From the NCBI GenBank assembly GCA_025266875.1, contig JALLLT010000069.1, forward strand, positions 1 to 64,000: 64,000 nt of DNA. The letters run 5' to 3'. This DNA comes from Fennellomyces sp. T-0311. Lineage: Eukaryota; Mucoromycota; Mucoromycetes; Mucorales; Lichtheimiaceae. The position numbers and the translations under genes were made by a program. Below the pieces are notes generated by a model. That model saw only the letters and a program-made list of their open reading frames with translations. It did no database searches and was not told where the DNA came from. Of the stretch, positions 43,101 to 56,892 are shown one piece after another (within the stretch, counting starts at the first letter, position 1; every line of letters begins with the position of its first letter).

Positions 43101-45925
43101 CTAAGCTTTGATATCAGCTCTATTACGAAAGTTGTACTTTCTTTTCTTAACGCTCTTATTCTTTTGTTCGCGTTTTCTCTTTGTTAGTGGTTTAGTCTTC
43201 TCAGACGTTGAGTTGTCCTTTTGAGGTACTTCACCGGAGTTCAATCCTCTTCTTTTCCAGTACTTGGTAACGAAAGTAGGATCGCTGAAATTCTGTGGCG
43301 GCTCCCATGTATCATCACTCTCGTCATAACCTGTCCATCTAACACGGTATAGAAAATTACCATTGTGCTCTTTGTGATCTACAATGTTCTCTACATCGTA
43401 AATTTCGTCTACAGGTACGTCTTCGACCTTTTGGACTGGTTTCATCTGTTCTAGCGAAAAGTTTCTTCCAGCGAGTTTTCCCTCATAATCTTCTAAAGAA
43501 TATGATCCGCCTTTGGTATGGCTAATCACTTTGTATGGTCCTTTGTAACGAGGGTCCATTTTACCGGTCATCTCTGGCACTCTAACCATGACATAGTCTC
43601 CTGGTTTATATTCTACGATCTTGTGCGTTCTGTTGAATCTCTCTTCTTGTTTCTTATTGACACTTTTAGTTCTTTCTCCGATTGCGGGGAAGACAATCTG
43701 CTTCATATAATCTATTCTTTTCTGTAGCTCTTCTTGGCTAACTGGTTCAACGTCTGGATCTTCTCTGTAATCTTTAAAGTCATTTAACTTTCTTGCAAAC
43801 ATTAATGAAAATGGTGGAGTGTTATGACGCGTGGAAACATTTGCATTGATCGCTAGTTGTACCGATGGTACTACTTTGTCCCAGTCTAACATAGCTCCTC
43901 TGATCATCTTCTTGATGACGATGGTTGCCTTTTGTACCCATCTTTCTGCAGTACCATTTGCGCGCGGGTGATATGGAACGACTAGTCTATGTTCGAATCC
44001 GGAGTGTCTGGTAAATCTTTTCATCAGATCATTGACGAACTCAGTGCCGTTATCTGATTGGAGAACTTTTGGTAATCCAAAATCGCAGAAAATCTGAACC
44101 AGTGTCTTCACTATAGTGTCTGCTGCTTTATCCGGCAGTGGTCTCAGAATGCAAAATCTGGTCGCAATATCTACTAAGACCATCAGGTACCTGTTACCGG
44201 TTCTAGACTTGTCAAACGTCGCCAAATCAATAGCAAGATGATCAAACGGTCCATCTGCTGTGATCGTTCTTAAAGGATGATATCCTTTCTGCACAATATT
44301 AAACTTCTGGCACTCTCGACAGGACATAACCAAATCTACCGCGTCTTTCTTTATGTTCGGCCAATGTAACCCATTGTTGTGTAGGGCTTGCACTATGGCA
44401 TTTGCACCAAAGTGACCAAATAAGTGTGCTTTCTCTAGCAACTCTTTTCTCTCTAAAGCCGGCGGTTCAATTGTGTTTGCTTCTATTGAGGCAGCTCTGC
44501 TGTATCCATCTGTGGACTCTTCTTCTTCTTCTGTTTCAGCTTCTTCTTTATGCTCCATCAGAGCACTTCCCCCCTTCGAAGAGGCAACGACATCTTCATG
44601 GAACAGTCGTGATAAGCTGTCAGGAAGTCCATTCTGTTTTCCGGGAATATGGATAACCTCAAAATCATAATCAAATAATGTGTCGTACCAATTGGTTAAC
44701 ATATGATTCAAGTGCTTCTGTCTGTGTATGTAAATGAGAGCTTTGTGATCTGTATAAAGCGTGAACTCATTACCCCATAGGTATGCATGGAACTTCTTGA
44801 ATGCAAAAATCACTGCACACAATTCTTTCTTGGTGACCATATATGACCGTTCTGACTTGGTCAAGGCTCTAGCCATGAATGATATGATGTGCTTCTTGTT
44901 ATCGTACTTCTGGTACAAAACAGCGGAAATGCCTACATTGGAAGCATCCGTAGCAACATGGAATCTCTTGGTCATATCTGGGAAGCTCAAAAGGGGTGCA
45001 TGGAATAATGCATGCTTGAGTCTCTCAAAAGCATCTTGATGTTTCTGTGTCCATTGACTCTCTACGTCAGTTGAATATCTCAATTCATCTAATGGATTTG
45101 TGATATCTGAAATATATGGGATATGTTGGCGGAAATAATTGATGAAGCCTAAATAAGACATCACCTCTTTGGCGGTGGTGGTACTGGCCAATTCTGAGCA
45201 TTGACAACGCGCCTTCTGTCTAAGGAATGACCATTCTGATCGATCCTGAATCCCAATAGATATACACTCTTCTGCATAAAATAGCACTTCTTTGGCTGTA
45301 AAATCAGATTTGCATCCGTCAAACGATCGATCACAGTCGAAACGTGGTAGGCATGCTCTCCAATACTCTTTGAGTGTACCAAAATATCGTCTACGAAAAT
45401 GGTAACCCATGGTAAATCTCCCAGTATCTTGTTCATAGTTCTCTGAAACCGTGCACTCAGGAACTTCAATCCAAAACATGATCCACGATGCATGTATCTC
45501 TTTGAATCTGGTCCTGTGAAAGCAAGTTTGTGTCTGTGCTCTTTTCTAATCAGAAATCTGGTGAACGTGAGTGCTAAATCTAGCTTTGTAAAGACTCTTG
45601 AACCGTTCAATCTGTCGAAGACTTGCTGCAGTGTTGGACTACAGTATTTGTCATTCTTCTGATACTGGTTGATCATTCTGACGTCAAGGCAAATTCTGAA
45701 TTTGGTAAAATTTCCATCTTCATCGCGTTTCTTAGCAACGGTGAGTGGATTGTTCCAACGGTTGTCTTCATCCAGAGAAATTTCTACGATTGTTCTGTCG
45801 TCGAGCCATTTCTGAATTTGTTCTTGTACGGCTGGTTTCGCTTTGTGTGGAATGTCGTACTGTCTACGATGGCACACAATGCCTTCTGGTGTTGGAATGG
45901 AAACCAGTGCTCTGGCAACGGGCAA
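43101..45925 (-). CDS. Gypsy-3 pol: RT-RNase H-integrase-chromodomain
   Basis: Reading from about 45925 on the minus strand: RT begins LVSIPTPEGIVCHRRQY, with the palm motif FVDD (IFVDDILVHS, about 45385) and CFGLKFLSARFQR. A 1-nt shift at about 45175-45185 (in CCACCACCGCC) leads into TAKEVMSYLGFINYFRQH. RNase H has VATDASN, KKELCAV and YTDHKAL. The integrase has the H..H/C..C finger (HLFGHFGA ... CRECQ), D in AIDLATF, D in QSDNGTEF and E in TAERWV. The chromodomain is FLYRVRWTGYDESDDTW (about 43355-43300). The C-terminus is basic (KRKREQKNKSVKKRK). Catalytic residues are all present; the two 1-nt shifts may be real or sequencing errors. The chromodomain probably guides integration to methylated histone marks, as known for chromoviruses. 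Confidence 0.9.
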
Positions 45926-47709
45926 AGTTTTGTCTTGTCTACCAACGCGTTTTTCTTCAGGCTCGATTTGATCAACCTGTGAAATGTGGCTTGCTCTTTC
46001 TCAGTCCCGGCAGGTGACTCATTTGGAATAACCGAATCATCTATCTCCAGTTCCTTTTCTTCTTTCAAACCATCTTTCCAAATTGAAGCAAGTCCAGTAT
46101 AGCCAATGCCCAAATCGTTGAAAAGGTCTTTTCCAATGCTTGCTGGGTGGCCTCTTGTAATTCTCATAACCTCAAATTGGTACTTTATACTTCTGTTGTT
46201 GTGCCATATTTCTAAGGGCTCTGTAATACCAATTCTTTTACTCTTCTTATCTGCACTTGCAAGTGAAATATGACCATCTGTTGGCAGCACACGAATATTC
46301 TCTTTATTACAAAAAATGTAATCTACTGCGCTAAACGTGGCGCCTCCATCCACAAGAGCAACCAAACGGCGACTTCCTATGGTGACAAAAGTGAGAGTTT
46401 CGTCCTCTTGGTCAGTGATCTCATCTTTTCTCTCTTCTTTCTTCTGTGACTTACAAGGCAAGGCATCTTTTGTGGATAAATCCACGACTCTATGAGCTGC
46501 ACGGCTCGTTCTCTGATTACCACTTCTAGTGGCAGGTGTCAGGGGAATCCCCTTCATGACCTTATACTCATCACACTCATGACCAGGTCTTCTTTGTTTC
46601 CGGCAATAAATGCAGACGTTGGGATCATATGGAGCCCGGTTGCGGCGGTGTTGGTTGGCCGGGTTGTGGATGGATGCGGCAGTGCCCACATGAGCAAACA
46701 TATGTGAACGACGACTCGGCGGCAAACCAGAATTCTCTTCATTCCGGGATCTCTTGTTGTCAGACGAATCCAACTGCAAACTAGCCACATAACCAACCAT
46801 CTCTTGTAGTGACACCGTCAACAAATCTTTGCTGAACTTTGTCAACACCAGGTCATACACGTCGTGCTTGTTCACCAGCAATGAAAGGAGGGCCACGTTC
46901 ATGATCTTGGGGAACTGCTCTAGTCCAGCTTCGATGCACTTTTGGTGGAACTTGCGTGCATATACCGCCACTTTCTCTTTGCTCTGTTGGCGCATATGGA
47001 GGATGGACTCCATTGTCTTGAGTTGTCGCTCGGGGGTGTCAAATTGCTTGACAATCTCCGAACGGAGCTCGGCCCAAGTGATGGCAGGGTTTTCTTGCAA
47101 CATGGTGTCCAGCCAAATGGATTGCATGTCGTTGAGGCATTTCGGCAATAGACAAGCCCAGTGGTCTTCCACCTTGAAGTTGGCCGATACAACCTCTTTC
47201 TCGAACTTGCACAAAAACATCTCGGTTGATACGTGCGTGGACTTCGTGGGGTGCCATTCTTCGGAACCGACGATCTGGAGGACAGGTAAGTCCTTAGGCA
47301 CGAAGTGACTCACGTCAGCAGCTTCGGCCTTAGCAGCGGCAGTCTTGCGGGCAGCAACCTCTTGCTTGGTCAAGAACTTCAAGCACGTGGGATGGCGTTG
47401 CTTGCAAAACGACCGGTAGCTCTCAGCATTGGCTTGCGCCTCCATAAGCACATCCAATGCTTGCTTCTTGTCCTTAGCGGCAGCGTTCTTGGTAACCGCT
47501 TCTTGGTAGGCCACGTTTGCCTCATCGACCTCCTTAACCAGTGCCTGGTAAGTGTCCAACTCCTTGCAGTGAGGCTCATCGCTCAGAGACAACTGGTCGA
47601 TGTCAAGGTCCATATCTGTTGGTCCGGCTAGGGTCTTGTTCTTCTCAGGATGTTCTTGCAACTCCTGGACGTTCTTGGGTTCCTTGGTAGTCTCGGGCTT
47701 GAGTGACAT
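45926..47709 (-). CDS. Gypsy-3 gag-protease
   Basis: Starts MSLKPETTKEPKNVQ at 47709, just 35 bases after the 5' LTR. The N-terminal third is a coiled-coil-like region rich in A, K, E. A capsid region follows (HWACLLPKCLND ... YARKFHQKCIEAG), then a knuckle CIYCRKQRRPGHEC with C-x2-C-x7-H-x-C spacing, as in Gypsy-2. The protease active site is VDGGATFSA (about 46360). The gag-protease frame is open to 45784, but homology shifts frame near 45925, joining to LVSIPTPEG of the RT. Whether that shift is programmed or an error cannot be told from one copy. Gag forms the particle; protease matures it. Confidence 0.9.
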
Positions 47710-47744: not shown

Positions 47745-48016
47745 TGTGTTATCTGGTTTAGATAGTGATAGAAGAACAAATAGAAGAGACAATAGGAATC
47801 CTTTGAGACACGGATTTATTCTGAATAACAGATCAAGTTCAACTATCAATTCAATATTCCTTTTATACTGGGCAATACGTTGTACGGATTGCACCATCCA
47901 TGATTCTAAGTGACAATGTAGTATGGATTGCACCATCCTTGATTCTGAACGCGCATTAAGCTGAGTGCGACTCGGTATTTTAATCTTCCATTTTCGGACT
48001 TCTCTTGGACACCACA
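47745..48016 (-). repeat. 5' LTR of Gypsy-3
   Basis: 272 bp and almost identical to 42788-43061. On the minus strand the promoter TATAAAAGG is at 47867-47859. Its outer end abuts the TA of the IS630-type element. Confidence 0.95.
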
Positions 48017-48018
48017 TA

Positions 48019-48215
48019 CAGTCGTTCCAGTTCCAAATGATAAAATTTTCTTAGGGTTTGGGGAACCGATCGAATGGAGTATGGGAGACCATGTGGGAAA
48101 CGTTTACTATTGGACGGAACAATCATCAACCGAATCGAAGTAGCACGCAGCAGATGGGAACTGTTGTACAAAACCCTAAAAAGGAAAGCTTGATTCAAAA
48201 AGAATCCCAACTTTT
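48019..48215 (+). repeat. Left TIR of the IS630-type element
   Basis: 197 bp, inverse of 53047-53243 with a few differences that are all transitions (for example GTCG/GTCA at the tip). Its inner end coincides with the stop codon (48214-48216) of the minus-strand DDE-like gene. Confidence 0.9.
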
Positions 48216-49470
48216 ATTGCTGTGGAGAATAGGCAGAAAAACTCTTCGTACATTCATCTACCCAAGCCTGGCAATCCTTTTGACTGACCGTTTCGATGAC
48301 CTCTGTCATCCTCGTGGCCAGGTTTTCATTGACTCCAAGAGGGGTCCTTCTGACGTTTGACTTCACCTTAGCCTATAAGGGACGGCTGGGATTAAAGAGT
48401 GATGACTTTACTGGGATCGGAATCACTCTGTGCTTGGCCTTCTTGATCGCTTCGATAACTTTCTGATCTTTATGATCAGGTAGATCCTCAAAGACGAAGT
48501 AGAGATTGGCCTGCTGCTACTCCTTAAGGATCTGAATCACGCCATTGACAAAATGCCGAAAATGATCGACCCTTGTGCCTTAAGCAGATCCTTGTCTCTC
48601 GAGATTTGGCAGCTTCTTCATGTTTGGTGTTGGAATCGCATCCTGGAAGAACGCCAAAACACCATTAGCACTCATATACACGAAACTCTGCAACGGAATG
48701 GCAGTATCCTTTTGCTTTTTCGGTCTTGTTTTGGCAATCAGGAGATCGGTTCTGGACAATTTGCACCTGTCGAAGAAAATACACTTGCTATAGTCGATCT
48801 TGTTCCCAAGCAAAGCACTCACGTATTCTTTACGTGCAGCGTCGACAATCTCCTTCTCTGACTCGGATACCAAAGGTTCGTCTGCGATATGGATATTAAA
48901 TGTGAAGTTTTGCTTAAGGTAGGACTGGATTGCATTGTTGGTCACTTGTTGGTCTATGTGGTTGTAGGTTGTCAGTATTTATCGATCCACTGGGATATTT
49001 TGATAATCACCTGGGTATCCTTGGGCCAGAGCATCTACCACTTCTTTTAAAATGATTTGTGGACCGTATCTCTCGACATAGTCTGCAAGAAAGAGTTTCT
49101 GCGCATGTGAAAGCTCGACGGAGGATACTGCAGAGCGTGGCTTCCAACCTGGAATGACGTCTGGATTGGCCTTCAGCATACTACTATATCTGTACGCCGA
49201 TCCCGAGGAAAGCCTATGGCCTTTCGATGCTTGATTAACGGTGGCCCCGTTGTACTTGATCGCATTAGTGAACTTTGCGATACGAGCAGGGGTGTGGCCG
49301 ACACTGGTTCTTAGAGTCCACACATACTCAGGAACATCATCTTGCGACATTGCTCCAGACGAGTTGGATTCATTTTCGGTGGCAGGATCGGACATAATCG
49401 CATCCGTGTCCATTGGGGTTAGGCGGTAGTAGTGCTTTCCGGCTTCGTAATAGAAAAAGGTCAGTTGCAT
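48214..49470 (-). pseudogene. Divergent DDE-like IS630-family protein
   Basis: Starts MQLTFFYYEAGKHYY at 49470 (a second ATG, MDTDAIMSD, lies at about 49413). An N-terminal HTH region (VELSHAQKLFLADYVERYG, VVDALAQGYP) is followed by a 57-bp intron (48954-49010) that joins GYP to DQQVTNNAIQSYLKQNF. The RNase H-like core has FFDRCKLSRTDLL, matching FIDESGFKKGNL of the plus-strand transposase, then FVFEDLPDHKD and FNPSRPL, stop, AKVK, matching LNPIEKVWKQLK. Arginine thus takes the place of the catalytic glutamate. Stops lie at 48580-48582, 48517-48519 and 48373-48375. If the missing glutamate is ancestral, this is a non-catalytic partner; if not, simple decay. Confidence 0.7.
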
Positions 49471-49548
49471 GGTTTGCGTTAAAAGTAAAGGAAAAGTGGT
49501 TCAAAGGAACATCTTATATATACATTTTATGTAACACAACTATCTTTT

Positions 49549-50046
49549 TTATTTCAACTGAGGCTTAATTGTCTGCTCAAAAAACATGGCGATTTCTGGA
49601 TCGGTACGAGCTGAACGGACTTTTGGTGTTCTGGTTCGAGGAACCTTTGGAACTGGAGGGTAGCCATGGTTTTTCACCAGGTCACGCAACAAGCCCTCGA
49701 GGGTCTTTTTCTTGATACCTGATTGTTCTGCTGCCATCGGAATTCCCTTTTTTTCAACATACACCAATTGCAGAGCGTTTTTCACCTTCACGGGGTCATA
49801 CTTGTCATAGCTAGCCCTCTTCTTGCGCGGCTTAGCCTTCTCCTTGGCAGGATCCACCGTTTCCTTGTTAAGGTCCATATGGCTAATACTCTCGCTCATA
49901 TGGACGTCGTCATCGTCTTGCATAGGCTGATCCTGGTTGGGCTCTTTCAGAACTTCTTGCTCCAGTATCGCAGGTGCAACATGCATATCTTGCAGAGGCA
50001 CGGCAGCTTGCTTGTTGGATGAAGAGGTGGAGCTGAAAAGATGCAT
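49549..50046 (-). CDS. Small helix-turn-helix protein of the IS630-type element
   Basis: An intact 165-residue frame starting MHLFSSTSSSNKQAAV. An acidic N-terminal half (QPMQDDDDVHMSESIS) is followed by a basic linker (KPRKKRAS) and a helix-turn-helix-like segment (VKNALQLVYVEKKGIPMAAEQSGIKKKTLEGLLRDL region, about 49810-49710). The C-terminus is basic. TATA-type ATATAAGG on the minus strand lies at 50100-50090, about 45 bases before the ATG. It resembles the N-terminal DNA-binding part of IS630 transposases and the fragment at 57394-56825. It may bind the terminal or spacer repeats; that is inference. Confidence 0.65.
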   Translation of the reverse strand: MHLFSSTSSSNKQAAVPLQDMHVAPAILEQEVLKEPNQDQPMQDDDDVHMSESISHMDLNKETVDPAKEKAKPRKKRASYDKYDPVKVKNALQLVYVEKKGIPMAAEQSGIKKKTLEGLLRDLVKNHGYPPVPKVPRTRTPKVRSARTDPEIAMFFEQTIKPQLK

Positions 50047-51369
50047 CTTGATAATTGAATAATAGCTATAATGAAAATGACAGCTACTGCCTTATATACT
50101 TTTATTGGTTACACCCGTTTCAAGTAGACGATGTCAATAATTGAGCTGAAGTATAATATATTTTTGATCACATGTATTCGGTAGTTCGATTGAGAAAAAG
50201 CTAAAGGCAATTATATTGAGAATAAAGATTGGTGCACAATATTAAGCTGAGCATCAAGGATGCTCTTGATCCACCAGATAAGGTAATGTGGTTGAGCATA
50301 GCAATTTAGCATACATGTTCCGCATTACAAATAAGTGTCTCCAATGGGCATATAGATTAAGCTTCCAAATTGGCGTTGTAAATTAGGCCACGGTCCCCAT
50401 AGCATTGAGACACAAGTTTGGTTCTAGAATTTGGTCATTTTATCGAGGTGGAAGGTTCAGCACGTGATTTGAGCTTAAAGTTGAGCATGAGGTGAATGGG
50501 AATATAGCACAAAAATTAAGCTCATACTTAAGGAATCTGATTAAGGCATCCAATAGGGTGCTAAAGTTAAGCAGCTCGGGTAATATTTTAGGTGAGTTAA
50601 TTAAGCATCTTTACTTCAGCATGTAAGTAGAGCCATAGATTAAGGCAAAACTGAGCTTTTTTGAGCAGTAAAAGTGAGCATCGGGATTAAGTTTTGAGTT
50701 GAGCACAATCATTGAGTATTCGAAGGAAGCAATTGGTTTAGGTCATCTAATTAAGCATCTGCTCCGGCAAATTCAGGCAGATATTTAAGCATTTAAAGAG
50801 AGCACAAGGATACAGTGACCAAATTGGGTTACAAATTAGGCATCGTGTTGAGCAGCCCATTGATAACTCAGCTTGAGCAACAAGAGAGAGCATCTGGGTT
50901 CGGCCTTACTTTAAGCATTTGAGTTTGACTGCAAAAGTTCAGTAAGCTAATTAAGCTTTCACATCCAGAAATCAATTTGCGGATTGAATTTGGCGGCCGA
51001 TCTTGAGCACGTGGGTTCAGTCTAGCTGTCAAGGATGTCAATTCATCCTTCAGAGCACCCGAATAGGAACATAAGTCCAATATACAATCCACATTAATCA
51101 ATGCAGTACACTATTTTAGCTCGCATATCGAGAGCGAACATCATATCTTTTAAGCCTTGAAGTATAGCACACCGAAATTTGGCAACAGCAAGAACGTATG
51201 GTCGCTCTTATTCCGCACATCAATTGAGCATTGAAATTAAGTACGACTACTTTGATAATTTAAGTTTCCGGATATGATGCTACGCTGTTGTTGCGATCTA
51301 TAATCCATATAAAAAGGGCACTGTAAGCCAAATCAATCAGTCAGTATCTATCTTTCCCCTCTTCACCCT
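50047..51369. promoter_or_regulatory. Divergent promoter spacer with dispersed short repeats
   Basis: About 1.3 kb without coding potential. It is packed with variants of two motifs, ATTAAGC(A) and TTGAGCA(T), spaced irregularly and often 20-50 bp apart, on both strands, from about 50230 to 51260. TATA boxes lie at each edge: 50090-50100 (minus) and 51308-51317 (plus). The arrangement resembles clustered protein-binding sites. Confidence 0.7.
51308..51317 (+). promoter_or_regulatory. TATA box of the plus-strand IS630 transposase
   Basis: TATAAAAAGG, 52 bases before the ATG at 51370. Confidence 0.5.
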
Positions 51370-52993
51370 ATGAGCAATCGAACTGTCCAATTCATTAGCT
51401 GCCAGCCTGACGCAAGTGGTTCTCAGCGATCTACAAGACGACGTGTGGTTAAGACCGCCAAGCCTAGAAGTACCAGACAGCCAAGAAAGAAAAGCACCCA
51501 GTCCACCGGCCTTCAATTCCATTTCTATAAGCCGAGAAATCATGTTGAAGAACAAGACCGTGCCATTGAGTTTTCCGGTCCACTGATGTATTACAAGTAC
51601 CAAGACCTGGGAGACGATGGAGGATACAATGTGCGGGTTTCTGGGCCCAAGCCCATAGAGGAAATGACCGTTCGCCACATCTTCCGGATGGCCGAGTTGC
51701 CTGCCAGCGCCACCCAAGCTGCTGTTGAAGGAGACCAGATCTCTGATGGCGATGAAGAAGTGGTACCATTTGATATCGATCCCGCCAAAAAGTACATTTG
51801 GACAAAGCAGTACAAGGTCAAGAATGTTTGGGGATTGATTGATTTGGTGTGCCACCAAAATGTGTCCATCAAGGAAGCCGCTGTGAAGGCCTATATCAAA
51901 CAGCCTACAGCTTACAAGATGGTGGATGAGTACCGACAGGACCCCTCCAAACTCCCAGGTTTTAAGCTGGTCACCGACGTGTACAAGCCAAATCATAACC
52001 AAAAATTCAAGCAAGAGCACACTGCTTTCCTTGACCAGCTCATCACCGCAGACCCACTCCATACGATGAAAGAGCTACGCTTCAAGCTTATTGAGCAATT
52101 CTCAGGTAACAGAGACTCATTCCTTTGCCTAATCCAGATCAACTGATATATATCATTTCTAAAAAGGCTTCCAAATCAGTCTATCTGGCATTTACAATCA
52201 TGTCACTGGCGCAATGAACTACAGCCGCAAAAAGGTACGAATGATTTCAGAATCACGGAATTCGAAAGAGAAGAAGCAGGCGCGGTTCGACTTTGTCCGA
52301 AAGCTTCTGAAAGATGGGATTGACTACATGAACGATTGCGTCTTCATTGACGAAAGCGGCTTCAAGAAGGGCAATCTGCAACGTGCCGGCTACTTCAAGA
52401 GAGGTGTTCCATGCGTGATGGAAGTTAGTGACAGTCGTGGCGTTAACCAAAGCATCATCAGCTGCATGTCTAGTGAGGGTGTTATTTTGCTTTCAAGACA
52501 CGCCCCAAGGGAAAACATCCTGGATCACCACGATCAAATTGGATCCAAGAGAAAGTGCAAGGACCAGTTCTATGACACCACCTCCACACACTTCCATGAT
52601 TTCATTGAAGATCTTCTTCAAGTGATGCAAGACCTCGGCCTCAAGGAGAAGTACATCGTTATGGGCAATTGCTCCATCCACAGAGGCGATGGGACTGAGG
52701 ACCTTATTGCGCAAGCCGGTCATACTCTTCTCTACTTGCCAGCACGCGCCCCCTTTTTGAACCCGATCGAAAAGGTGTGGAAGCAGCTAAAGGAGGAGGT
52801 GCATCGGCATTCTTTGGTTTCCAACAAAGATCTTATTGCCAGGATCGAGAGGGCAGCGTGAAAAGTGAGCGCGAAGAACTGCCGCGGATATATAAGAAAC
52901 GCAATCTCGTTCTTCGATGCTTGTCTAGACAAGCAAGACATTTACTTCGACGAGCAGTTTAGATTGACAAAAAATAAACCTGGGGAGCAGTGA
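51370..52993 (+). pseudogene. IS630-type DDE transposase, two lesions
   Basis: Cut-and-paste transposase. The start MSNRTVQFISCQ at 51370 opens a basic N-terminal region. HTH segments follow (WGLIDLVCHQNVSIKEAAVKAY, about 51830-51900). A 61-bp intron (52106-52166) joins EQFSG to FQISLSGIYNHV. Catalytic D is in FIDESGF (about 52345-52365). The second position, normally D in the pattern DNCxIH, reads GNCSIH (GGC at 52664-52666). The E is in LNPIEKVW (GAA 52769-52771). An in-frame TGA at 52859-52861 (likely CGA originally) is followed by open frame KVSAKNCRGYIRNAISFF to a stop at 52991-52993. So the copy should be inactive, though otherwise well preserved. Confidence 0.85.
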
Positions 52994-53046
52994 GCGCTTT
53001 CTTCATTGGAGTTGTCATGTATTTGACAGAGTGAAGCCTTTTTGTA

Positions 53047-53243
53047 AAAAGTTGGGATTCTTTTTGAATCAAGTTTTCCTTTTTAAGGTTTTGTACAACA
53101 GTTCCCATCTGCTGCGTGCTACTTCGATTCGGTTGATGATTGTTCCGTCCAATAGTAAACGTTTCCCACATGGTCTCCCATACTCCACTTGATCGGTTCC
53201 TCAAACCCTAAGAAAATTTTATCATTTGGAACTGAAATGACTG
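53047..53243 (-). repeat. Right TIR of the IS630-type element
   Basis: Inverse of 48019-48215, ending CTG at 53243 before the TA. Confidence 0.9.
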
Positions 53244-53245
53244 TA

Positions 53246-55133
53246 TTCAAAACAGAAACACCTTTGGCTTTGTCGATTCCAGTGCTACGTTTAGCGCGAT
53301 CACTCCTTCCTTGGCCTCTCGTCTGGGTCTTTTGGTTACGCCATCCGTTGGCAAGATTGGTCTTGCGGCCCCCAGGCTACAGATAGATAGAATTGGATCT
53401 GTCCAAATAAAGATCTCTCATAATGGCTACACTACTGTTCACACTTTCGAAGTCATGGACTTCAATGCTGATGCTGATATTTCTATCGGTGCTGATCTTA
53501 TGCATCACATTGGTATTTACTTGCAAGGTCTCGCTTATTGCTGGCACAAACTCAACAGACCTTTAGCTCCGGCTACTACTTTCTTGCATGAGCCTAGCAA
53601 TTCTCCAGCAGGCACTCCTGAAGAACATGCAAAATTCATTGCTGCATTACAACCTTTTCTTGATGCAAATGCTGCTATTCCTCGTACAGCATCTTGTCCG
53701 CTTCCTGAAGCTATGCTCTATATTCCTACCAAGGAAGGCGAAACAGCCTATAGATGGCAATACCCCTTACCCAATAAGGCAATGCCGGCAATTTGGGAAC
53801 AGATCAACAAATGGATCGATGACGGCGTTGTTGTTCCTGCACCTCCAGGCAACACTTTTAACAACCCTCTTACCTTCGTTCCTAAGCGTGATTCCTCCGG
53901 GAACATCAAATCCTTAAGAATTTGTCTTGACCCACGCAGACTTAACGCCATTAGTGAAGTCTCAAGATACCTGATTCTGCTTATCAAGGATATTTTCAGA
54001 AAACTGCGACATGCAAAATACTTCGTTCTTCTTGACTTGAGCGACGCCTTTACAGCACTACCTATCTTTCCTGGTCACCAACATAAGGTATCATTCACCT
54101 TCGATGATCGCCAATACATGTTTGCCAGAATGCCTTTTGGTCTAGCAGATGCTAGTAGCCACTACATGCACACGTTGCACACAATCACTCATGACCTCGA
54201 GCGGACTTAATTCTACATTGATGATGCCATCATTTGAGGTGACGATTTTGACTCGCTGCTTGAAGCAACTTCTCGCACTATCTGTCGACTGACTGAATAC
54301 AACCTTCGTATCAACATTGACAAAGCACGCTTCTATCAGAAATGTGTCTATCTCCTTGGCTACTACATTCAGGAAGGCATCATCGCGCCTGATCCACGCA
54401 AAGTCTGTAACGTCACGGATTGGCCACAACCCAAAACGGGCAAAGACATCATGTCCTTTCTTGGCCTTACTGGCTATTTTCAGGAACACATTCCCAACTA
54501 TGCGTACATCACTGCGCCATTGGACGCCCTTTGCTCGGCTAAAAGCCTTAAGGGTATATGGACTGAAGAGCATTCAATTGCCTTCAACAAGGTCAAACTC
54601 GCCTTACAATCTGCACTGGTTCTTAGCCAACCCGTAGAAGGCTTGCCTTACTACTTGGTCACTGATGCTTCTCAGTACGCAATCGCCTGTTGTCTCTACC
54701 AGATCGTGGACAATACCTACTACTACATTGGTTTCATGGCTCGTTCCTTGAACAAAGCTGAACGCAACTACTCTACTAGTCGCCGGGAACTCTTAGTGAT
54801 TGTTTATGACTTGACCAAGTTCCACAAGTTCACTTGGCAAAACAAACTCACAGTCATGTGCGACCACAAGTCCCTGCAATATCTGCACACTCAACTGGTA
54901 GCATCTCCAATAATGGTCAACTGGCTCGACACTATTTGCAATTACGACTTCGACGTTGTATATCTGCCTGGCATTCGCAACATCCTTCCCGATGCATTAA
55001 GTCGCCTCTTTCCATCGAACGTGCTGGAGAGGGGTAATGTGTCAGATGAAGACAACAATTTCGCACGTTCTCCTTATTTAGGCAATTTTATCTCGTCTCG
55101 GAAAAACAAGAGCACAGAAGCCTCTTCTTCCAC
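53246..55133 (+). pseudogene. Gypsy-2 protease-RT-RNase H piece
   Basis: Third segment of Gypsy-2. Protease FVDSSATFSAITPSL (about 53262; DSS where DSG or DTG is usual), then RT with RICLDPRRLNA, LLDLSDAF, the palm motif YIDD (54214-54225) flanked by in-frame TAA (54208-54210) and TGA (54235-54237). LGLTGYFQEHIPNYAY and the RNase H residues VTDASQ, RRELLVI and CDHKSLQY follow. The frame is one and the same from 53249 to about 55130, where it runs into the IS630-like repeat (after KSTEASSSTT). Integrase and 3' LTR are not found in the window. Confidence 0.85.
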
Positions 55134-56892
55134 TACTGGATTTTTCCTCTCTCTTTGCGGTGATTGGGTAGAACTTTTGCGGGTTCAAGTAAGATCGCTT
55201 TGCGGACAAAAATAAACCTTTTGCTCATGTGCTGCTGCCTTTTGCGGCTGTGAATGTGCATTTGCGGCTATGGTGATAGTTCTTTGCGTGCTTGCACTTT
55301 GCGTTTACAAATTGTGGTTATAGTTTGTGAGCGTGATTAAGCTTCCTTTGCGGATTTATTCATTGCGCTTTCACATTGTGGCTAATGCTTGCGGACTGGT
55401 CAAGCTTCTTTTGCAACTAATGTTTGCGCACTAATCATGCTTCCTTTGCGGATATTATTTGCGGGCTTATACATTGCGTCTACTTCATTGCTTCTAATGC
55501 ACGCAACATGGTGATTCCGGTCTCCGTACCTACATTTTAAAAAGAAATCATATGATATATTTTATATTGTGTGCCATTGTGAAGGTGCATAGATACTGCC
55601 TAAGCATATTGATTATCATGGATAGATAATGTATCCGGGCGCATAAGAGACCTCAGAATGTGTATATGGAAAGCGGTTATTGCTCAGAGACAGTTTACGT
55701 CATGGCAGCTGGATATAGAAAAAGCACATGTATAGCGGTTCCGGAAACTAAACAGACGATTATATATGAGCTTAAAATGTGTGCATGTGGGACGATCAGA
55801 ATATACAGCAAATTCACTTGATCATTACGGGCATGTCTAAGTAGAGAGCATAGACAAAGATTGCAAATTAGGTGACTTGCCAAATGAGCATAGATTCTAT
55901 GCACGCTAAGAGATTATAAAAATGGATCATCGAAAGGATCGTAAAAGTGTATATGCATAGAAAGATTATGAAACATATACAAGCTACAGATTACTAATAA
56001 AGAGCACAGACTGTGGGAAAATTGAGCGGCTATATCGAGTGGACACAGGAAAGTGCATGTAATATGCTCATAAAGAGCGTATATTGTATAGAATATATAA
56101 ATGGGCAGAGAAAAAAGATATGACTAAAGTAATATAAAAGAGAAATAATGATGGGGGAAAGGAAGAGGGTACTGGATGACTTCCAAAACGTTTATACACT
56201 GCGTGATAAAATAAAATAAACGAGAATTGTTACACGGATTTCCTAATTCGACGATGGATAAACCTTAATCACCCCTCGATAAACAGCATTGGGGGGACGG
56301 GGATAACTTTTTTTTACTTAGTGTTTATCCGCGATAAACTTGGATATACCCGACGGTCTATTGACCCCCTCTGACCCCCCTCAATAAACTTTTGCCATTT
56401 ATTGATTTCCGACCTTGGCTTCCATCTTGCGCTCTAATTCGGCCAATCTGCTCCGGATCTCCTCCAGCTGGATGCAGAGAGTGCTGTCCATGCCTCTCAC
56501 CATCCTGTGCACATCCTGCATCATCGTATGGATCTACGTCTTCTGTAAAAAAGATGTTGACATCCGATGAGCATCATCATAGACAAATCTTGCATGTATT
56601 GTTCAAATCACACAATTTCTGTGTGCCTGAGGTTGGTATCAGCCAGATACGCACTGTATTTTATGGTGTTTGGAGAGAAAGAAATAGAGGAAACTAAAGA
56701 AGTACGTCTATCATGGATAAACCGAGTTTTGGAAGTCTTCTTGGAAATAGAAAGCGAATAAACTTTATTCTACTTTGTATCACCCCATCTATTTATTCTG
56801 TATAAACGTTTTGGAAGTCATCCACTATTCGGTGACATTTTTACTAGCGTTCATTTTCGTTAACAATTTCAAAGCGATGTCTTGGTTTACTA
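55134..56892 (+). repeat. IS630-like element fragment, copy B (with nested TIR element)
   Basis: Second copy of 2009-3440, starting at a TA with CTGGATTTTTCCTC. It is richer in CpG than copy A. Within 55150-55500 the motif TTTGCGG or its variants recurs about every 15-25 bp. It lacks the solo LTR of copy A and has a 650-bp insertion at 56174-56823. It breaks the RNase H end of Gypsy-2. The right end and a matching TIR were not found. Confidence 0.75.
56174..56823. mobile_element. 650-bp TIR element with 3-bp target duplication
   Basis: Perfect 25-bp inverted ends beginning GGATGACTTCCAAAACGTTT, flanked by ACT (56171-56173 and 56824-56826). The empty site GGTACTATTC is preserved in the other copy of the host repeat at about 3374-3383. 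The minus strand can encode a short coiled-coil-like end (LCIQLEEIRSRLAELERKME, about 56480-56420) preceded by an intron-like acceptor, so it may be an internal-deletion derivative of a larger gene-bearing element. A 3-bp duplication occurs in CACTA and Harbinger elements, but the ends fit neither clearly. Confidence 0.85.

Follow-up and report, generated by a model that had tools for sequence, protein, structure and literature searches.

The 64,000-nt stretch of Fennellomyces sp. T-0311 (Mucorales) DNA analyzed here, which we call the window, holds at positions 48019-53243 a mobile element with a transposase gene (A) on the plus strand and two further genes (C and B) on the minus strand. Judging from its sequence, the element is a decayed copy of an old IS630-Tc1/mariner family of the DD34E type, built of three genes, and B is to all appearances a paralogue of A over its full length, in which two of the three catalytic residues were lost before the split of the sampled subfamilies. 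We consider a heteromeric transposase, composed of A and B, to be the best reading of these features and probably the correct one.

The element is bounded by 197-bp inverted ends, which differ at seven positions and have TA outside each end; they lie within inverted arms (48016-48215 and 53047-53246) that are 97% complementary. A preliminary description of this DNA had reported both these ends and the three genes between them, and the genes were indeed recovered as open reading frames and predicted exons, with A on one side and C and B on the other transcribed outward from a 1.3-kb centre. That description also called the plus-strand transposase canonical, which holds for its DDE_3 domain (E=6.9e-24 on the plus strand of the window element; for PF13358, E=1.9e-25 in copy C165 and 3e-27 in copy C1) but not for the residues of this copy. 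In the window, the second catalytic Asp of A is Gly (codon at 52664), A has one early stop, and there are three in-frame stops within exon 2 of B. The C165 copy is 97.8% identical to the window element, and has all three genes open and the second Asp of A intact; its A frame continues to the position equivalent to 52990, whereas that of the window ends earlier. Since A and B are decayed here and open in C165, the window element is a dead copy, and it is other members of its family that are informative.

Relationship of gene B to the transposase

The blocks of B that had been said to line up with A are present in the window (CVFIDESGF ... LNPIE in A, CIFFDRCKL ... FNPSR in B, with Arg at the position of the Glu). 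Alignments of A with B span 339-370 residues at 24-25% identity (four elements or close-element pairs). In profile-profile comparison the catalytic exons match with a probability of 99.9% (E=8e-36), and the N-terminal exons with one of 99.4% (E=2e-21, 110 columns). On these comparisons, A and B are evidently homologous beyond chance, and over both exons. The genes also share a predicted structure of two exons, with an intron of ~54-66 bp at a homologous place in five A and seven B models. Several splices are possible for most genes, and the homologous site was chosen, as backed by the public models P0004 and P0005. P0004 (“hypothetical protein”) is the B protein of the window, identical as far as the first stop; its intron is 57 bp, and B of C165 was modelled with one of 66 bp.

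The catalytic Asp, Asp and Glu (D1, D2 and E) of A are kept in nine of nine rows of this lineage (lineage 1; the decayed window and C180 copies stand outside this set), and the D2-to-E gap is 34 residues in the four A sequences measured, as well as in two of two sequences of Ax, the transposase of a second lineage described below. B retains D1 in 16 of 16 rows, and the residue that follows it is variable (Arg in the window, Gly in eight of the 16). At the second site B has Glu, or Pro in the C177b group, and at the third site Arg, Lys, Tyr or Ile. Both statements hold for 15 of 15 readable rows, because the C57 copy of B is truncated without these two sites; the residue counts leave out the B copies on C5, C8, C60, C96 and at C4:15 kb. 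The window B has D1, Glu for D2 and Arg at the third site. The Arg for Glu of the preliminary description is therefore present, but the loss is not confined to the Glu. P0001, a B homologue at 68% identity, has Asp, Glu and Cys at the three sites. Because the second and third residues are gone from the readable B rows and from P0001 alike, their loss looks ancestral to B.

Against PF13358, B scores 33 bits in the C1 subfamily (cut-off 28.6) and 22.9 bits, below the cut-off, in the C165 copy, which belongs to the window subfamily. The catalytic exon of B is predicted to adopt an RNase H-like fold (mean predicted local distance difference test score, pLDDT, 71), and the solved structures closest to the model are SETMAR, Sleeping Beauty and Mos1.

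Co-occurrence of A, C and B

The Fennellomyces genome (45.6 Mb, 182 contigs) was scanned with the ends of four subfamilies, which gave at least 11, 9, 19 and 13 matches. Facing end pairs less than 10 kb apart define ten elements (C149, C165, C4, C178, C1, C130, C24, C166, C177 (20-27 kb) and C32). Two ends on C117, which may pair across 15.7 kb, stand outside this count. In place of the single transposase gene typical of IS630-Tc1/mariner, all ten carry the full set of A, C and B, divergently arranged in the same way and with TA on both edges. Their inverted ends range from ~197 to 452 bp and their sizes from 5.2 to 8.4 kb. Five of them have frames that look unbroken (C165, C4, C177, C1 and C130); C149 is broken in A and B, C166 and C178 in B, C24 in C and at the end of A, and C32 in A exon 1. 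The preliminary description had proposed to look for co-occurrence, which is thus complete in this set, and had envisaged copies lacking the minus-strand genes; there are none, and specifically none without B, among the ten end-bounded elements (the ends of subfamilies C57, C171b/C117 and C60 were not searched). A-only and B-only pieces do occur, and most of those fetched have lost one end, reach a contig end or are interrupted by other sequence; no ends were found at loci L020, L024 and L036.

The place and strand of B are kept across subfamilies that are only 25-38% identical in B or A. A transposon nested within another, or a B protein with an intact ancestral triad, had been named earlier as alternative explanations. 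B is degenerate in the 15 readable rows and P0001, and nesting was rejected because B has the same position in all ten end-bounded elements and the window element has no inner ends (no inner inverted repeat of at least 20 nt within it); the kept place and strand, and the single clade formed by B (below), agree with this. Two apparent same-strand layouts were also rejected as exceptions: the pieces at C163 are separate fragments of C32-type elements, and at L019 (C171) the B gene is 96% C4-type and the A gene is from another subfamily. On C171 and C4:1-16k, A and B of a further subfamily have the expected orientation at distances of ~7.8 and 13 kb, perhaps owing to nested insertions. Copies are found on C24, C57, C117 and many short contigs, several of them less than ~25 kb from contig ends, a distribution that suggests a repeat-rich or subtelomeric niche.

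Selection on the three genes

The ratio of nonsynonymous to synonymous substitution rates (dN/dS) in the catalytic exon of B is 0.16 in each of three between-subfamily comparisons (C165-C13, C177b-C32 and C1-C27), in line with the constraint on the divergent gene that the preliminary description had proposed to look for. A gives 0.21 for C177b-C32, and C177b-C163 gives 0.23 for B and 0.22 for A. For the N-terminal exon of B the values are 0.35 (C165-C13), 0.08 (C177b-C32) and 0.20 (C1-C27), and C57-C165 gives 0.26 for A and 0.28 for B. C has values of 0.36, 0.25 and 0.10 between subfamilies. Synonymous and nonsynonymous proportions differ in all 13 between-subfamily comparisons tested (Fisher p 2e-5 to 3e-27), and show no such difference in the recent-copy controls of A from the window subfamily (p 0.58 and 1, n=2), where recent copies of A exon 2 are near neutral (0.76-0.92, three pairs). 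C13 belongs to two groupings, and C165-C13 is one comparison; rows labelled C174 are of the window subfamily for A and of C1 type for B, and mixed cross-comparisons were left out.

By these ratios, B is evidently under purifying selection between subfamilies, and on the strength of the deeper comparisons B appears to have been needed over many rounds of transposition. The idea that B is a decaying leftover of A was rejected on its open frames and on between-subfamily ratios well below 1.

Phylogeny of A and B

Two trees were built, one from 49 catalytic-exon sequences, including 15 B rows, and one from 32 longer rows. All 15 B rows form one clade (100/100) in the first. Support for A plus B is 94/92 with 49 sequences and 98/95 with the longer rows, and A need not form one clade. 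A and B each divide into the same two groups, {C177b, C32, C163, C1, C24} and {C57, C171, C178/C4, C165}, between which A proteins are 35-38% identical. From this shared split, the A/B duplication would be about as old as the separation of the two groups, or older.

A second lineage of paired genes

An element of a different lineage (L011:1-5074) adjoins a partial C30 copy. Its ends measure 251 bp or more, and the left one begins right at the edge of the contig. The element carries a DD34E transposase gene (Ax, plus strand) and a gene for an RNase H-like protein (Bx), arranged tail to tail. Further loci of this lineage 2 are on C13, C168, C130, C98, C29, C111 and C21. A search with Bx gave 11 long matches, and at least eight of these have a convergent Ax match (among the best 150 of 173 candidates). 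Bx also occurs in Circinella minor and C. umbellata. Small extra open frames near both ends of the C30-type element (L011:287-658 and L011:4289-4588) may be further genes of lineage 2.

The first catalytic Asp is replaced by Gly in nine of nine Bx sequences read, within V-F-[VI]-G-E or I-F-V-G-E. These nine comprise the C168, C30 and C29 loci, the divergent C21, three Circinella proteins (P0050, P0052 and P0053, two species) and two further proteins; the gene model P0049 skips the first catalytic site. The second Asp is kept in eight of nine, and the Glu is Asp in seven of eight. Some mariners use Asp at the third catalytic position, so the Gly is the more informative change. Profile comparison supports homology of Bx to Ax with a probability of 98%. 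The structure model of Bx is poor (mean pLDDT 57; best matches Mos1 and SETMAR), and the sequence profile was relied on for this reason.

A single origin of B and Bx was rejected, the best tree uniting them being disfavoured by the approximately unbiased (AU) test at p=0.0028. Bx was already apart in an earlier tree, so the grouping tested was not chosen blind, and the long branches advise caution in reading this value. Ax and Bx fall together on the same side of a branch that is weakly supported (76/73). With the tree uniting B and Bx rejected and Bx placed beside Ax, it seems that a non-catalytic partner arose on two occasions, and that the catalytic residues lost were not the same.

Gene C, central region and feature coordinates

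A gene is present at the place of C in all ten end-bounded elements. C of the C165/C178 group and C of the C1/C177b group are only 14-18% identical, so that C is not shown to be one family. The helix-turn-helix (HTH) protein of the preliminary description exists as an open reading frame (49549-50046), and its HTH assignment is weakly supported: the C1 type matches HTH_23 below the cut-off (E=0.0033), and the domain search gave no HTH_23 match for the C165 type. Descent of C from a copy of the transposase N-terminus was also considered and is not shown, the profile match being weak (probability 15%).

The centre of the window element (50060-51330) contains a strand-biased array of the motif TTRAGC, with 20 occurrences on the plus strand and one on the minus; the corresponding counts are 21 and one in C165, and 24 and one in the centre of the C178 element (L017). 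The array is absent from the centres of C177b, C32, C1 and C130. It possibly represents binding sites of C, A or B. The centres of the C1 and C177b/C32 group elements (L023, L025, L027-L030) have large inverted repeats with arms of ~0.5-1.4 kb, together with repeated units, between the divergent genes.

Retroelement-like pieces lie on both sides of the window element, at 45784-47709 and 53244-55215 (labels by eye from translations): the left side has a gag/protease-like frame on the minus strand, and the right side has protease/reverse transcriptase/RNase H-like frames on the plus strand.

Table 1. Parts of the window element, with positions in the window.
Feature	Position	Strand	Remark
Left terminal inverted repeat	48019..48215	+	Starts CAGTCGTTCC; TA outside
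Gene B exon 2, RNase H-like domain of putative non-catalytic transposase paralogue	48214..48953	-	Splice as in public model P0004
Gene B predicted intron, 57 bp	48954..49010	-	Site homologous to gene A intron
Gene B exon 1, encoding an N-terminal domain with a homologue in A	49011..49470	-	
Gene C, small HTH-like protein, 165 amino acids	49549..50046	-	Open reading frame; HTH weakly supported
Central non-coding region between divergent genes	50047..51369	.	Holds TTRAGC array
Gene A exon 1, N-terminal region of DD34E transposase	51370..52105	+	
Gene A predicted intron, 61 bp	52106..52166	+	
Gene A exon 2, DDE domain	52167..52861	+	Frame stops early in window copy
Right terminal inverted repeat	53047..53243	-	TA outside

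A proposed heteromeric transposase and its alternatives

What the preliminary description observed is confirmed, and its interpretation, a transposon that uses a catalytic and a non-catalytic transposase paralogue, is supported; two things are added to it, namely that the copy in the window is dead and that pairs also occur in a second lineage, which appears to be independent. The constant companionship of A and B, their similar constraint, their shared two-exon make-up and the dead site of B suggest a mixed complex. On the long inverted ends, A and B would form a mixed transpososome; cutting and joining would fall to A, and B would recognize the ends, bridge them or place the cut. C could assist by binding DNA, either at the ends or in the central promoter region that the genes share.

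Several points weigh against this reading. It rests on sequence comparison, from which we infer contact, DNA binding and transposition, and purifying selection would look alike for a subunit and for a regulator. As a neutral control, recent copies behave unevenly: those of C1 type give 0.09-0.34 for B exon 2 (15 pairs), 0.05-0.73 for A exon 2 (six pairs), and, in frames that include codons upstream of the start, 0.45-0.96 for B exon 1 where finite (seven of ten pairs); A exon 2 of C32-C163 has a dN/dS of 2.81 on 20 differences, and other recent-copy ratios scatter widely. In the trees, C57 and C171 are placed differently in A and B within the second group, at weakly supported forks, and B has diverged faster than A. 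Beyond the Fennellomyces genome, lineage 1 is represented by one B and four A proteins, without genomic context.

The main rival is a self-encoded regulator. B would in that case be a brake, a dominant-negative paralogue that holds copy number low either by binding to the same ends or by joining A in dead heteromers. The retention in B of N-terminal and RNase H-like domains homologous to those of A, without the full triad, is what such a brake would look like, and copy number does look low by the end matches given above. A brake encoded in cis should, however, be easily lost by faster-spreading copies, yet each of the ten end-bounded copies has B; B is constrained about like A in the three pairs with both measured, and the same pairing was reached by two lineages. 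On balance we regard regulation as unlikely, though it deserves to be taken seriously. Less likely still is that B and C serve some other task of the element outside the cutting complex; they might help to choose targets, enter the nucleus, evade silencing or drive transcription from the shared centre. The accessory proteins of the Oxytricha TBE elements set a precedent, since they are constrained and left DNA-binding profiles unchanged in E. coli (PMC12242761), and the strand-biased TTRAGC array occupies the centre in two subfamilies; but the array is absent from four elements of the other group, and the paralogy of B to the transposase over both exons points to the ends. It is very improbable that B still cuts by means of shifted acids. 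D1 is kept throughout, and an acid is often found at or beside the D2 place (ED, PD), but at the third position every readable row has Arg, Lys, Tyr or Ile and P0001 has Cys, and the residue beside D2 is Asn in C171b and C117.

If the heteromeric transposase is extended to both lineages, two Mucorales Tc1/mariner lineages would each have turned a duplicate transposase into a long-kept non-catalytic partner, and their transpososomes would be obligate heteromers, a mobile counterpart of Pgm/PgmL. The routes would have differed, with loss of D2 and E and divergent genes in one lineage, and D1 changed to Gly and convergent genes in the other. We put this wider reading forward tentatively, as somewhat short of an even case. 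Tc1/mariner is the textbook example of transposition by a single, self-sufficient protein, and a dead paralogue kept under strong constraint, apparently twice, would show division of labour arising inside the transposase. Paired elements of this kind would let the transition made by ciliates to PiggyMac and its partners be modelled in a mobile system, and they provide natural experiments in which one fold has lost either its first, or its second and third, catalytic residue.

Comparison with known systems

In characterized mariners, one transposase does everything. Other systems need or carry more than one protein, among them MuDR (mudrA/mudrB), Tn7 (TnsA/TnsB) and the RAG1/RAG2 elements; their partner proteins, unlike B, are not degenerate duplicates of the DDE subunit.

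The elements described here share with DD34E members of Tc1/mariner-IS630, for example Tc1-MP1, the DDE_3 domain, the DD34E spacing, the TA flanks and the inverted ends. Tc1-MP1 is a Tc1/mariner DD34E element of Rhizopodaceae and Mucoraceae, for which the available parts of the source mention no second open reading frame (PMC9977792). A classical Tc1/mariner element has one transposase (PMC9977792, PMC12242761), unlike the three genes in 5.2-8.4 kb found here, one of them apparently a non-catalytic transposase paralogue. No Tc1/mariner element with such a paralogue was found in the literature searched, which was covered in part and included PMC6143343, PMC12242761, PMC7928374 and PMC9977792.

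The closest anatomical precedent within Tc1/mariner is the Oxytricha TBE element, with two additional proteins under purifying selection, whose presence was called surprising for the superfamily (PMC12242761). The closest working precedent appears to be the set of PiggyMac and PgmL1-5 in Paramecium, in which a single catalytic Pgm acts together with five groups of PgmL that lack the full triad (PMC6143343). Lineage 1 resembles it in that B lacks the full triad and is conserved, and lineage 2 in that Bx lacks the full triad, a likeness of residues of which selection is not part. PiggyMac and the PgmL proteins are domesticated host genes of the PiggyBac family, whereas A and B are carried by a mobile element.

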